Below, piece by piece: positions 52,838-61,987 of a DNA stretch of 64,000 bases. A program made the translations under genes and the position numbers. The notes beneath the pieces are model-generated. The model saw only the letters and a list, made by a program, of their open reading frames with translations. It did no database searches and was not told where the DNA came from. Position 1 is the first letter of the stretch; each line of letters opens with the position of its first letter. Source of the stretch: Ornithinimicrobium tianjinense (lineage in GTDB: Bacteria; Actinomycetota; Actinomycetes; Actinomycetales; Dermatophilaceae); contig NZ_BMEM01000001.1 of the NCBI RefSeq assembly GCF_014636495.1, forward strand, positions 1,442,471 to 1,506,470, written 5' to 3'.

Positions 52838-54229
52838 TCAGGCGGAGGTGCCCCGGACGGCGGCGATGAGCTCGTCGACGCGCGGGTCGACGCTGACGAA
52901 CGGGTCCTTGCAGACCACCGTGCGCGACGCGACGTCGTTGAGCTTGAGGTGCACCCAGTCGCAGGTGAAGTCCCGGCGCGCCTCCTGGGCGGCCCGCACG
53001 AAGTCGCCACGCAGCCGCGCCCTCGTCTCCGGTGGCTCGACCCGGGCCCTGGCCACCCGCTCGTCGTCGACGACGGTGGCCGCGGCGCCGGCCCGCTGCA
53101 GGATCGGCACCAGCCCGCGCGTCGGGTGGATGTCGTGCCAGGCCAGATCCAGCTGCTGCAGCCGCTCGTCGTGGGGTGCCAGACCGTGCCGCGCGGCGTA
53201 GGAGTCGAGCAGCTTCTTCTTCATCACCCACTCGATCTCGGTGTCGACGAGGGAGAGCCGGTCGGTCTCGATCGCGTGCAGGGTCCGGTCCCACAGCTCG
53301 AGCACCCGGTCGTAGGGTGCCACCTCGGCCAGGCCGACGCCCGCGGCATACCGGGACGCGAGCTCCAGCAGCTCCCGCTGCATGTCCAGGGCGGTGATCG
53401 TGCCGCCCCGCGCCCGCTGCACCGGCCGGCGCCCCGTGGGGTCGCGGCTGATGTCACGGATGGCCTGGACAGGGTTGGCCAGCGCCAGGTCCGGCACGAT
53501 GGTGCCCGCCTCCAGCATCCGCAGCACGAGGTCGGTGGTCCCGACCCGCATGAGCGTCGTCGTCTGGCTCATCGTGGAGTCACCGACGATGACGTGCAGG
53601 CGGCGGTAGCGCTCGGGGTCGGCGTGCGGCTCGTCGCGGGTGTTGATGATCGGGCGCGACCGGGTCGTCGCGGAGGACAGGCCCTCCCACATGTGGTCGG
53701 CGCGCTGGGAGACCAGGTAGGTCGCCCGCTCCCCCACGACGTGCAGCCGCCCCGCGCCGGTGACCAGCTGCCGGGTGACCAGGAACGGGACCAGCGTGTC
53801 CGTCGTGCGCTCGAGCCGGCCGTCACGGCGGATGAGGTAGTTCTCGTGCGAGCCGTAGGAGTTGCCGCGGGAGTCGACGTTGTTCTTCAGGACGTAGACG
53901 GTCGCGTCCATGCCCTCCTCCGCCAGGCGGTGCTCGGCGTCGTCGGCCAGGTCCTGGACGATCAGCTCCCCCGCCTTGTCGTGCGCGACGACATCGAGGA
54001 GGTCGACGCACTCGGCCGTGGCGTACTCCGGGTGCGAGCCGACGTCGAGGTAGAGCCGGGAGCCGTTGCCGAGGAAGACGTTGCTCGACCGGCCCCACGA
54101 GACGACCTTGCGGAAGAGGTAGCGCGCGACCTCCTCCGGCGAGAGCCGGGGGCCCTCACGGAACGTCGCGTTGACCCCGAACTCGGTCTCGATCCCGATG
54201 ATCCGGCGGCCGAGGCGGTCCGGGCTCAC
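52838..54229 (-). CDS. pafA: Pup-protein ligase PafA
   Basis: The 463-residue ATP-dependent ligase (glutamine-synthetase fold) joins deamidated Pup to lysines of target proteins. It begins [19 protein letters not shown] with the first metal-binding Glu, and includes [43 protein letters not shown] and [26 protein letters not shown]. It lacks the inserted Dop loop. GTG start overlaps the pup stop (GTGA). In mycobacteria pafA is separated from pup by prcBA and more; here they are adjacent. Confidence 0.96.
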
Positions 54230-54423
54230 TGGCCGCCCTTCTGCACGAAGTTGTGCACGAAGTCCTGGGCGTTGCTCTCGAGCACGCCGTCGATCTCGTC
54301 GAGGAGCGAGTCGAGGGCCGCGTCGCGCTCGGTGTTCTGGGCCGAAGGAGCGGTGGGCGGCGCGGGCGCCTCGGGCTCCGGCGTCTCATCACGCCGGTGG
54401 GAGAACTGCTGCTGCTCGGACAT
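54226..54423 (-). CDS. pup: Prokaryotic ubiquitin-like protein Pup
   Basis: The 65-residue, acidic, intrinsically disordered modifier ends in GGQ, the Gln that Dop converts to Glu before ligation. The C-terminal helix region [26 protein letters not shown] is the PafA- and Mpa-binding segment. Pup lies between dop (12 bp upstream) and pafA (overlapping), a compact dop-pup-pafA operon. Confidence 0.97.
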
Positions 54424-54435
54424 CGGGGTCTCCTC

Positions 54436-60262: not shown

Positions 60263-60330
60263 GTGGCTCCCGCACGCATCACCGGCCGATCCCGTCCCTA
60301 AGTCACTCACCGGAGTGGCTCGTGGACGCC
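60247..60330. repeat. Palindromic intergenic repeats, locus C (2 copies)
   Basis: Two diverged copies follow the DUF559 gene: CACTCTCGTGAGTGGCTCCC (about 60250) and CACTCACCGGAGTGGCTCGT (about 60303). They lie between the convergent DUF559 and mpa genes, where they may also act as terminators; the first overlaps the DUF559 stop. Confidence 0.75.
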
Positions 60331-60331
60331 C

Positions 60332-61987
60332 TCACAGGTAGGGACCGGTCGTCCCCTGCTCCACCGAGCGTCCGGGGTGGGTGCCCGAGGCGTCGCCGAC
60401 CAGCGTGCGGATGTAGGAGATCCGCTCCCCCTTCTTCCCGGACACGCGGGCCCAGTCGTCGGGGTTGGTGGTGTTGGGCAGGTCCTCGTTCTCCTTGAAC
60501 TCGTCGAGGTAGGCCTGGTCCAGGTGCCGCTGGCGCAGGCCCTCGTCCCCCGTCGTCAGCAGGTCCTTGATCGCCGACTTCTTGGCCCGGTCGACGATGT
60601 TGTGCACCATCGCCCCGGACGCGAAGTCCTTGAAGTAGAGCACCTCACGGTCGCCGCCGGCGTAGGTCACCTCGAGGAAGGCGTTCTCGGGAGACACGGC
60701 ATACATCTGCCGGACGGTGGCGTCGATCATCGCGGCAACCGTGGCCGCACGGTCGCCGCCGTGCGCGGCCACCTCCTCGGGGTGCAGGGGCACGTCGGTG
60801 GTGAGGTACTTGCCGAAGATGTCCCGGGCGCCCGCGGCGTCGGGGCGCTCGATCTTGATCTTCACGTCGAGCCGCCCGGGGCGCAGGATCGCCGGGTCGA
60901 TCATGTCCTCGCGGTTGGAGGCGCCGATGACGATGACGTTGTCGAGCCGCTCCACGCCGTCGATCTCAGCCAGCAGCTGCGGCACGATCGTCGTCTCCAC
61001 GTCGGAGGAGACGCCGGAGCCGCGCGTGCGGAAGAGCGACTCCATCTCGTCGAAGAACACCACCACCGGGTGGCCGTCGGCCGACTTCTCCCGCGCGCGC
61101 TGGAAGATGAGCCGGATGTGGCGCTCGGTCTCGCCGACGTACTTGTTGAGCAGCTCCGGGCCCTTGATGTTGAGGAAGTAGCTCGCCACGTCCTCCGGCT
61201 CGCCCCGCAGCCGGGCCGCCTGCCGGGCCAGCGACGCGGCGACCGCCTTGGCGATGAGCGTCTTGCCGCACCCGGGCGGCCCGTAGAGGAGCACGCCCTT
61301 GGGCGGCCGCAGCTGGTGGGCGGCGTAGAGGTCGCGGTGGAGGAAGGGCAGCTCGACGGCATCGCGGATCTGCTCGATCTGGCCCGACAGGCCACCGATG
61401 TCGTCGTAGGAGATGTCCGGGACCTCCTCGAGGACCAGCTCCATCACCTCCGGCCGCGGCACCCGCTCGGTCACGAACCCCGTGCGCGGGTCCATGAGCA
61501 AGGCGTCGCCCAGCCGCAGGGGCTCGTCACGCAGCGAGCCCGCCCGCACGCACACCCGCTCGTCCTCGCCGCGCACGATGACGACGACCCGGTCGCTGCC
61601 GAGCAGCTCCTTGCAGGTCACGACCTCGCCGTGCCGCTCGTAGGCCGCGACGGCCACCACGGCCTGGGCCTCGTTGAGGAGGACCTCCCGACCCGGGCGC
61701 AGCTCGTCGGTGGACACCTCGGAGGAGACGTGGGTGCGCACCCTCCGGCCGGACACCGTGACGTCGACGGTGCCGTCCCCCACCAGGCCGACGACCATGC
61801 CGAACGTCAGCGGCGGCGTGGCCATCGCGTCGAGGTCCTCGCGGAGCCCGGTGATCTGCGTGCGCGCGGTCCGCAGGGTCTGGGTGAGCTGCTCGTTGCG
61901 GGCCGACATCTCCCCGACCCGGGCGGTCAGCGTCCGGACCTGCTGCTCGAGGTTGCGCTCGCGCGCTGACCCGGTCGGCTGGCTCAC
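60332..61987 (-). CDS. mpa: Proteasome-associated AAA ATPase Mpa/ARC
   Basis: The 551-residue ring ATPase binds Pup through its N-terminal coiled coil ([26 protein letters not shown]), has two OB-fold domains (about 65-190), then an AAA module with Walker [18 protein letters not shown] and Walker [12 protein letters not shown]. It ends with TTGPYL, keeping the penultimate-Tyr/Leu tail by which mycobacterial Mpa (GQYL) docks on the 20S proteasome. GTG start overlaps the trmI stop. It feeds pupylated proteins to the proteasome or unfolds them. Confidence 0.96.

Follow-up and report, generated by a model that had tools for sequence, protein, structure and literature searches.

A proteasome-less Pup system in Ornithinimicrobium tianjinense with a probable remnant of the 20S docking tail on Mpa

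RESULTS

Pup genes without a 20S proteasome

A 64,000-nt stretch of the genome of Ornithinimicrobium tianjinense (contig 1, 1442471-1506470; the whole stretch is called the window) carries the genes of a Pup protein-tagging system, in which the proteasomal ATPase Mpa ends in GPYL. The genome (G000; 3,309,481 bases, 12 contigs, completeness 100) very probably holds a proteasome-less Pup system at a fairly early stage after the loss: the 20S genes prcB and prcA (prcBA) have been deleted, and the Mpa tail and a beta-hairpin are leftovers. The features that bear on this reading are as follows.

52838..54229, minus strand: pafA, Pup ligase (463 amino acids (aa), start MSPDRLGRR); TIGR03686 670.7 bits, cut-off 551.3
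54226..54423, minus strand: pup (65 aa, C-terminal GGQ); TIGR03687 65.3 bits, cut-off 41.45
54226..54229, minus strand: pup/pafA 4-bp overlap (GTGA), the prcB-prcA site of prcBA-carrying relatives; read from the sequence
54436..55977, minus strand: dop, depupylase/deamidase (513 aa); TIGR03688 588.8 bits, cut-off 492.3
60332..61987, minus strand: mpa/ARC, proteasomal ATPase (551 aa); TIGR03689 793.3 bits, cut-off 504.75; 4-bp overlap with trmI
60335..60346, minus strand: GPYL codons, remnant of the 20S docking motif (GGT CCC TAC CTG; GGN CAC TAC CTG in prcBA-carrying relatives)
60416..60418, minus strand: Ser524 codon of Mpa (Val582 of the solved mycobacterial Mpa), beta-grasp domain; departs from Val in species without prcBA
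60647..60661, minus strand: beta-hairpin AGGDR, aligned with mycobacterial Mpa 501-505 (ANGDK), second 20S contact (role, PMC8755798)

The original prediction, made from the letters of the window, had placed dop, pup and pafA next to one another with mpa and trmI 4-5 kb away. They do form one cluster on the minus strand, with profile matches over the cut-offs, and mpa lies 4.35 kb upstream of dop. It had also stated that an overlap of pup with pafA leaves no room for prcBA; the two genes share 4 bp (...CAGTGAGCCC...), so there is no space for a gene between them. The Mpa C-terminus had been read correctly as GPYL (codons GGT CCC TAC CTG TGA). Mpa contains an AAA domain (PF00004) and both proteasomal-ATPase OB domains (PF17758 and PF16450). 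A Pup ending in GGQ, as here, needs prior deamidation by Dop (PMC3511204). PafA starts with MSPDRLGRR, compared with MDRR in the prcBA-carrying relative G001.

Two alternatives had been left open: the 20S genes have moved elsewhere, or they were lost recently and the tail persists. The genome-wide search for 20S alpha and beta subunits that had been proposed was run and found none in G000: neither PF00227 at E<=1e-3 nor a PrcA profile built from eight sequences, at E<=1, gave a match across the genome. Both searches work in relatives. PF00227 detects two genes, those of PrcA and PrcB, in every prcBA-carrying genome of the genus (13 of 13), and on four such genomes all E-values of the PrcA profile were 1e-133 or better. 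Among ten genomes without prcBA, nine were blank with the PrcA profile and the tenth (G004) gave a weak match (E 0.017, positions 143-227) that was taken for chance. We rejected the idea that prcBA is hidden by divergence, since the profiles detect the genes in every searched relative known to carry them. Control scans of Escherichia coli and Bacillus subtilis were positive with PF00227; therefore an HslV-type protease would also have shown.

If the 20S genes had relocated and Mpa docked on a working proteasome, the persistence of the docking tail and the beta-hairpin would be accounted for. However, neither search finds them in a genome rated 100% complete, and Bpa, the other activator of the 20S, is also missing, so that relocation is extremely unlikely. 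We conclude that prcBA of G000 is lost, not relocated. What speaks for a recent loss with a persisting tail is that relatives hold prcB-prcA at the empty site, that the tails of relatives without prcBA vary, and that GPYL is one base from GHYL. 'Recent' holds on the scale of the genus only, since the sister species G024 also has no prcBA at its locus.

Distribution of prcBA in the genus

The Pup locus was taken from the other 30 genomes of a set of 31 Ornithinimicrobium/Serinicoccus genomes that includes G000. Of the 31, prcBA is present in 13 and absent in 18. In all 13 carriers prcB and prcA follow pup, and in all 12 in which both flanks could be read they lie between pup and pafA (in G005 the second flank is the start of pafA); the contig of G023 stops before pafA, leaving its second flank unread. 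The pup/prcB and prcB/prcA junctions are clear 4-bp overlaps in, for example, G001 and G018. In the 18 members without prcBA, pup and pafA either overlap or are separated by a short spacer, from a few bases to about 35, and the junctions vary by lineage. The spacer of G004 (ggcctgacccgtggaccgg) is similar to the end of prcA in G001 (gggctgacccgtggaccgc) and is a possible scar. The sisters G005, with prcBA, and G027, without it, both have the Mpa tail GHYL.

The 20S of three carriers was also examined. In PrcB of G001, G005 and G014 the HGTT sequence, including its Thr, is retained, as are the motifs GDRR and EKV, which contain the active-site Asp and Lys. Their PrcA retains Arg26, Lys52 and Glu119, together with an Asp/Ser pair at 142/144 that should correspond to 144/146 in the docking pocket (residue roles in PMC9599533). 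Nothing in these sequences suggests that the 20S of the three species is dead. The same three PrcA (L071, L072 and L073) are without a C-terminal ...NPQTQ stretch that is present in 11 of the 20 PrcA compared.

In a survey of the order, 155 of 297 genomes had a PF00227 match and 142 had none (122 of the latter identified by subtraction, with the count checked). Six genomes from three other genera in the family of G000 (G069, G084, G099, G113, G211 and G221) have no PF00227 match and Mpa tails without the motif; these are additional losses, apparently older ones.

Number of losses

A codon tree of rpoB (30 genomes, built by homology) and a tree of 24 markers (25 kb concatenated, 22 genomes, quick search, support from SH-aLRT, a likelihood-ratio branch test, only) both recover one clade of 19 species, of which only G001, G014 and G005 carry prcBA. 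Two of the 24 markers (R17 and R0) run antisense to the others in their stretch and are possibly not genes. In the 24-marker tree the clade consists of G003; G000 with G024; (G001,G014) with (G005,G027); and 12 species without prcBA, namely G004, G002, G025 and nine more, two of them named Serinicoccus. Counting losses only, this tree gives five: G003, G000/G024, G027, the 12 species, and G020/G009. A tree of Mpa, Dop and PafA matches it on the group made up of (G001,G014) and (G005,G027), and on the 12 species. Transfer of the entire locus was rejected on this agreement. PrcBA of G001, G005 and G014 form a group beside G016, inside the genus.

Several observations weigh against this account. 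The rpoB backbone differs, placing G003 with G005/G027 and setting G004, G002 and G025 apart from the nine, which raises the count to six losses. Unordered parsimony needs four changes, for instance with one regain, versus five losses. The PrcBA tree joins G001 with G005, while the other trees join G001 with G014, a small conflict. Finally, the assembly is in 12 contigs, so that a 20S gene of G000 could be hidden in a gap, although this is unlikely.

Fewer changes are needed if a single loss of prcBA at the root of the 19-species clade was followed by a regain, through transfer, in the common ancestor of G001, G014, G005 and G027, and position 524 of Mpa (see below) taken alone fits this equally well, with four changes either way by hand count on the 24-marker tree. 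Yet a regain would have to recreate the 4-bp overlaps at the site they had before and leave the signal of the adjacent genes undisturbed, and PrcBA of the three species nests inside the genus. We consider it unlikely. G001 keeps the 4-bp overlaps seen in G018 and its PrcBA lies inside the genus, and therefore retention is favoured. Thus losses are preferred because the overlaps are kept and the trees agree, not because of the count, and the pattern is best read as about five separate prcBA deletions in the genus, one of them in the sister of a prcBA-carrying species.

The docking tail of Mpa

The tails of all 12 readable Mpa from prcBA-carrying members end in GQYL (nine) or GHYL (three: G001, G005 and G014). 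The 17 readable tails from members without prcBA are GPYL (G000), GHYL (G027, G002 and G025), GHYQ (G024), AHYH (G003), GRHL (G004), ...LGER or ...LGDR (nine) and DEGG (G020); these counts leave out G009 (74% complete), whose mpa is frameshifted, and G023, which has no mpa over the cut-off. GxYL is thus found in 4/17 compared with G[QH]YL in 12/12 (Fisher p 6e-5, uncorrected for kinship), and the penultimate Tyr is kept in 6/17. Among 80 named loci from many actinobacterial genera, with prcB directly seen in 56 and both genes in 54, the Mpa tail is GQYL in 77, WQYL in one and ...DLGER in two, both from Serinicoccus.

The ATPases of 20S-free organisms are reported to have no docking motif (PMC3511204). 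The original prediction had named a C-terminal PYL common in proteasome-free species as a finding that would tell against it. Of the 142 order genomes negative with PF00227, 80 were examined for Mpa and 63 had it. The penultimate Tyr occurs in 1 of 64 readable copies from genomes outside the genus that lack prcBA (G160 was unreadable and left out); it is also missing in G044 and G046, two further genomes. The published rule therefore holds widely, and the clade of G000 is the exception. The single copy with the Tyr, from G166 (L225, another family), ends in ...RDYL, and is possibly another young loss. The converse rule is loose: G056 (L287) and G041 (L288) have 20S genes without the usual docking tail on Mpa, ending in ...RQVEA and ...PDPDLL, respectively.

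GPYL conforms by sequence to the G-x-Y-L pattern of Mpa ends that can enter the alpha pockets of the 20S, with Pro in place of a Gln that is reported to be dispensable (PMC6017811, PMC12288473). The original prediction had compared it with GQYL. It is indeed near, but most likely derived from GHYL and not directly from GQYL: a single A to C change (CAC to CCC) separates GPYL from GHYL, and the ancestral codons were likely GGN CAC TAC CTG. The codons for G, Y and L comprise 6.3 nonsynonymous sites, and the chance that all three survive under neutrality is 0.28 if the synonymous divergence (dS) accumulated after the loss is 0.20, and 0.21 if it is 0.25; Mpa of G000 and of G001 differ by a dS of 0.43 with both branches summed. 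Neutral drift suffices to explain the survival of GPYL.

The tail might instead persist through a function, either docking Mpa on another partner or plugging its own pore. The six members that keep the penultimate Tyr would agree with this, as would the conservation of Mpa as a whole and a crystal structure in which, without a 20S, Mpa C-termini are reported to lie within their own channel (PMC8755798). We nevertheless regard a function as very unlikely, for other members without prcBA have GHYQ, AHYH, GRHL or no such tail, the penultimate Tyr is missing from 63 of the 64 readable copies in prcBA-free genomes of other genera, and persistence in G000 is within what drift permits.

Other Mpa sites and selection on the Pup genes

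Mpa columns were compared using 78 named sequences pooled with 17 prcBA-carrying ones. At position 524, Val occurs in 92 of these 95 sequences, which carry prcBA or bear GQYL, and in 12/12 within the genus, whereas 16 of the 17 members without prcBA have Ser, Thr or Ala. The exception, G027, is apparently the youngest loss. Position 524 aligns with residue 582 of the solved 609-residue proteasomal ATPase, three residues away from Glu579, a reported contact. The beta-grasp domain in which it lies has been described as a second 20S contact, for which Asn502, Asp504, Lys505 and Glu579 are named (PMC9599533, PMC8755798); residue 582 was not found when the main texts of both papers were searched for it. 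Position 515 behaves similarly in fewer lineages (Ile in 12/12 with prcBA, Val in 12/17 without), and 427 and 518 show a like pattern in still fewer. Most flagged columns (such as 82, 85, 135, 405, 420 and 456) were rejected as markers of loss; they are changed in the prcBA-carrying G001, G014 and G005 too, and so mark the clade.

The hairpin is AGGDK in 10 of 17 prcBA-carrying members of the genus and family, and three more end in GDH. Its Asp is kept in 16 of the 17 genus members without prcBA (all but G020), hence the hairpin has not decayed and is a weak discriminator within the genus.

Between G000 and G001 the ratio of nonsynonymous to synonymous divergence (dN/dS) is 0.23 for Mpa, 0.28 for Dop and 0.22 for PafA, compared with 0.14 for rpoB. 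Purifying selection is thus acting on Mpa, Dop and PafA, and therefore the Pup system is probably in use. Relaxation after a loss, on the other hand, is uneven, which does not favour our reading: with G016 as outgroup, unique Dop changes number 34 v 19 (G000 v G001) and 34 v 17 (G024 v G001), while unique Mpa changes are similar, 19 v 20 (G000 v G001). Faster evolution of Mpa was rejected as proof of relaxation, the tests being mixed; an excess of 40 v 20 obtained with G005 as outgroup is invalid since the 24-marker tree puts G005 nearer to G001 than G000 is.

Absence of Bpa

Bpa (PafE; PF10759), which activates the 20S independently of ATP, accompanies the actinobacterial 20S according to a published co-occurrence rule (PMC4254994, PMC8223512). 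In the genus, PF10759 matches 9 of the 13 members with prcBA and none of the 18 without, G000 included. The four carriers with no match are G001, G014, G005 (84% complete) and G019 (75% complete). In five genomes that were read, Bpa lies between zinc-type dehydrogenase and NUDIX genes (Pfam) and ends in GQYL. In 12 further genomes, among them G001, G014 and G005, both flanks were found with no Bpa between them (tblastn, E<=1e-3); these flanks are about 50 bp apart in G014, 190 bp apart in G000 and 1-2.7 kb apart in G001, G007 and G020. Because Bpa is absent and its site empty in three prcBA-carrying relatives too, it was probably lost before prcBA in this clade. Outside the genus, 4 of 20 prcBA-carrying genomes (G032, G043, G047 and G056) have no Bpa match. 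For Cpa, a third interactor that is Cdc48-like, the CDC48 profile gave no match over the cut-off in 58 genomes; most matches below it were to an AAA protein of about 700 aa present in all, probably FtsH, and the result was not used.

Neighbouring genes

The genes on the minus strand run trmI, mpa, MFS transporter, TetR-like, dop, pup, pafA. Between dop and mpa lie the TetR-like and transporter genes and a nuclease-like gene on the opposite strand.

55987..56571, minus strand: gene of a TetR-like regulator (194 aa as scanned), with scores well below cut-off for TetR-type models
56538..58586, minus strand: gene of a DHA2-like major facilitator superfamily (MFS) transporter that has carboxypeptidase-regulatory-like repeats at its C-terminus; located between mpa and dop
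61984..63057, minus strand: trmI, tRNA methyltransferase; Pfam TrmI-like_N and GCD14; adjoins mpa

In the fetched loci of the genus, the transporter gene was matched in 31/31 members and the TetR-like gene in 20/31. Palindromic repeats (about CACTCACCGGAGTG) with a spacing of 52 bp occur in the window at 59023-59290, 60252-60317 and 52742-52807. A search for the repeat gave 13 matches at <=1 mismatch (10 places, some on both strands) where 0.7 would be expected, every one of them next to the Pup locus, and no match in five other stretches of the G000 genome. Two of the repeat clusters flank the nuclease-like gene (59135-60262, plus strand; Pfam MTES_1575 and DUF559 slightly under cut-off). This nuclease-like gene, again flanked by repeats on either side, adjoins mpa in G024, G001 and G027 as well; gene and repeats were not seen at the Pup locus of G014, G005, G003, G002 and G016. 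Together they look like a mobile unit.

DISCUSSION

Pup without a proteasome is already known. Like G000, Corynebacterium glutamicum and Micrococcus luteus keep the Pup genes and the ATPase without prcBA (PMC8223512 names both), and in corynebacteria pup also lies directly before pafA (PMC3511204). With pup, pafA, dop and mpa over their cut-offs, no prcBA and pup directly before pafA, G000 agrees with this type. It departs from it on the hairpin, where AGGDR is near the form of prcBA carriers, compared with a published description of IDGSV in C. glutamicum (PMC8755798), and on the tail: unlike the ATPases reported for 20S-free organisms (PMC3511204), its Mpa retains GPYL. The persisting tail contradicts the published rule, and since GPYL is retained, we file G000 as a variant of the proteasome-less Pup system. 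Another difference from the C. glutamicum and M. luteus systems is that prcBA-carrying sisters of G000 exist in the same genus. The complete Pup-proteasome system of O. murale and 12 other members has the same families in the same order (trmI-mpa-...-dop-pup-...-pafA); no prcB, prcA or bpa was found in G000. Bpa, present in 9/13 prcBA-carrying members, is absent from G000, which shares this absence with G001, G014 and G005, which keep prcBA. The new observations are this absence of Bpa in three prcBA-carrying relatives and the decay of the beta-grasp Val582 site together with the tail. In the literature on the Serinicoccus/Ornithinimicrobium proteasome and on proteasome loss with pupylation, searched by titles and abstracts and covering few subscription journals, none of the entries listed dealt with this case.

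A course of events may be proposed from the trees and the gene content. Bpa would have gone earlier in this clade. A deletion, one of about five losses in the genus, would then have removed prcBA and left pup against pafA. PafA presumably still tags proteins with Pup. The coiled coil of Mpa would bind Pup, and the tagged protein would be threaded, unfolded or taken apart and then released undegraded, while Dop would strip the Pup tag, as reported for ferritin in C. glutamicum. Both the GPYL tail and the hairpin AGGDR would be relics of 20S docking, not yet removed by drift. We propose such pupylation, unfolding and recycling in this organism with C. glutamicum as the best precedent; there, ARC has been proposed to take tagged ferritin apart, with the ferritin being recycled (PMC8223512, PMC12288473).

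The loss looks young and repeated, with G005 beside G027 and with G001 and G014 near the species of G000, so that pupylation with and without a 20S can be compared among close relatives. Two published rules are contradicted in this genus, that the docking motif is absent from 20S-free ATPases and that Bpa goes with every actinobacterial 20S. To our knowledge, why bacteria keep tagging after loss of the protease has mainly been studied in corynebacteria, with no prcBA-carrying sister species at hand. Somewhat tentatively, at a little under even chances, we suggest that the genus is a graded natural experiment in which a proteasome is taken down in a repeatable order. Bpa would have gone first, together with the Gln-to-His change of the Mpa tail; prcBA would have followed, on several occasions and almost scarlessly, and the docking surfaces of Mpa would have come last. 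Mpa sites that change only after the loss of prcBA would then map the 20S interface, pointing, in addition to the last four residues, to residue 582 as a docking residue.

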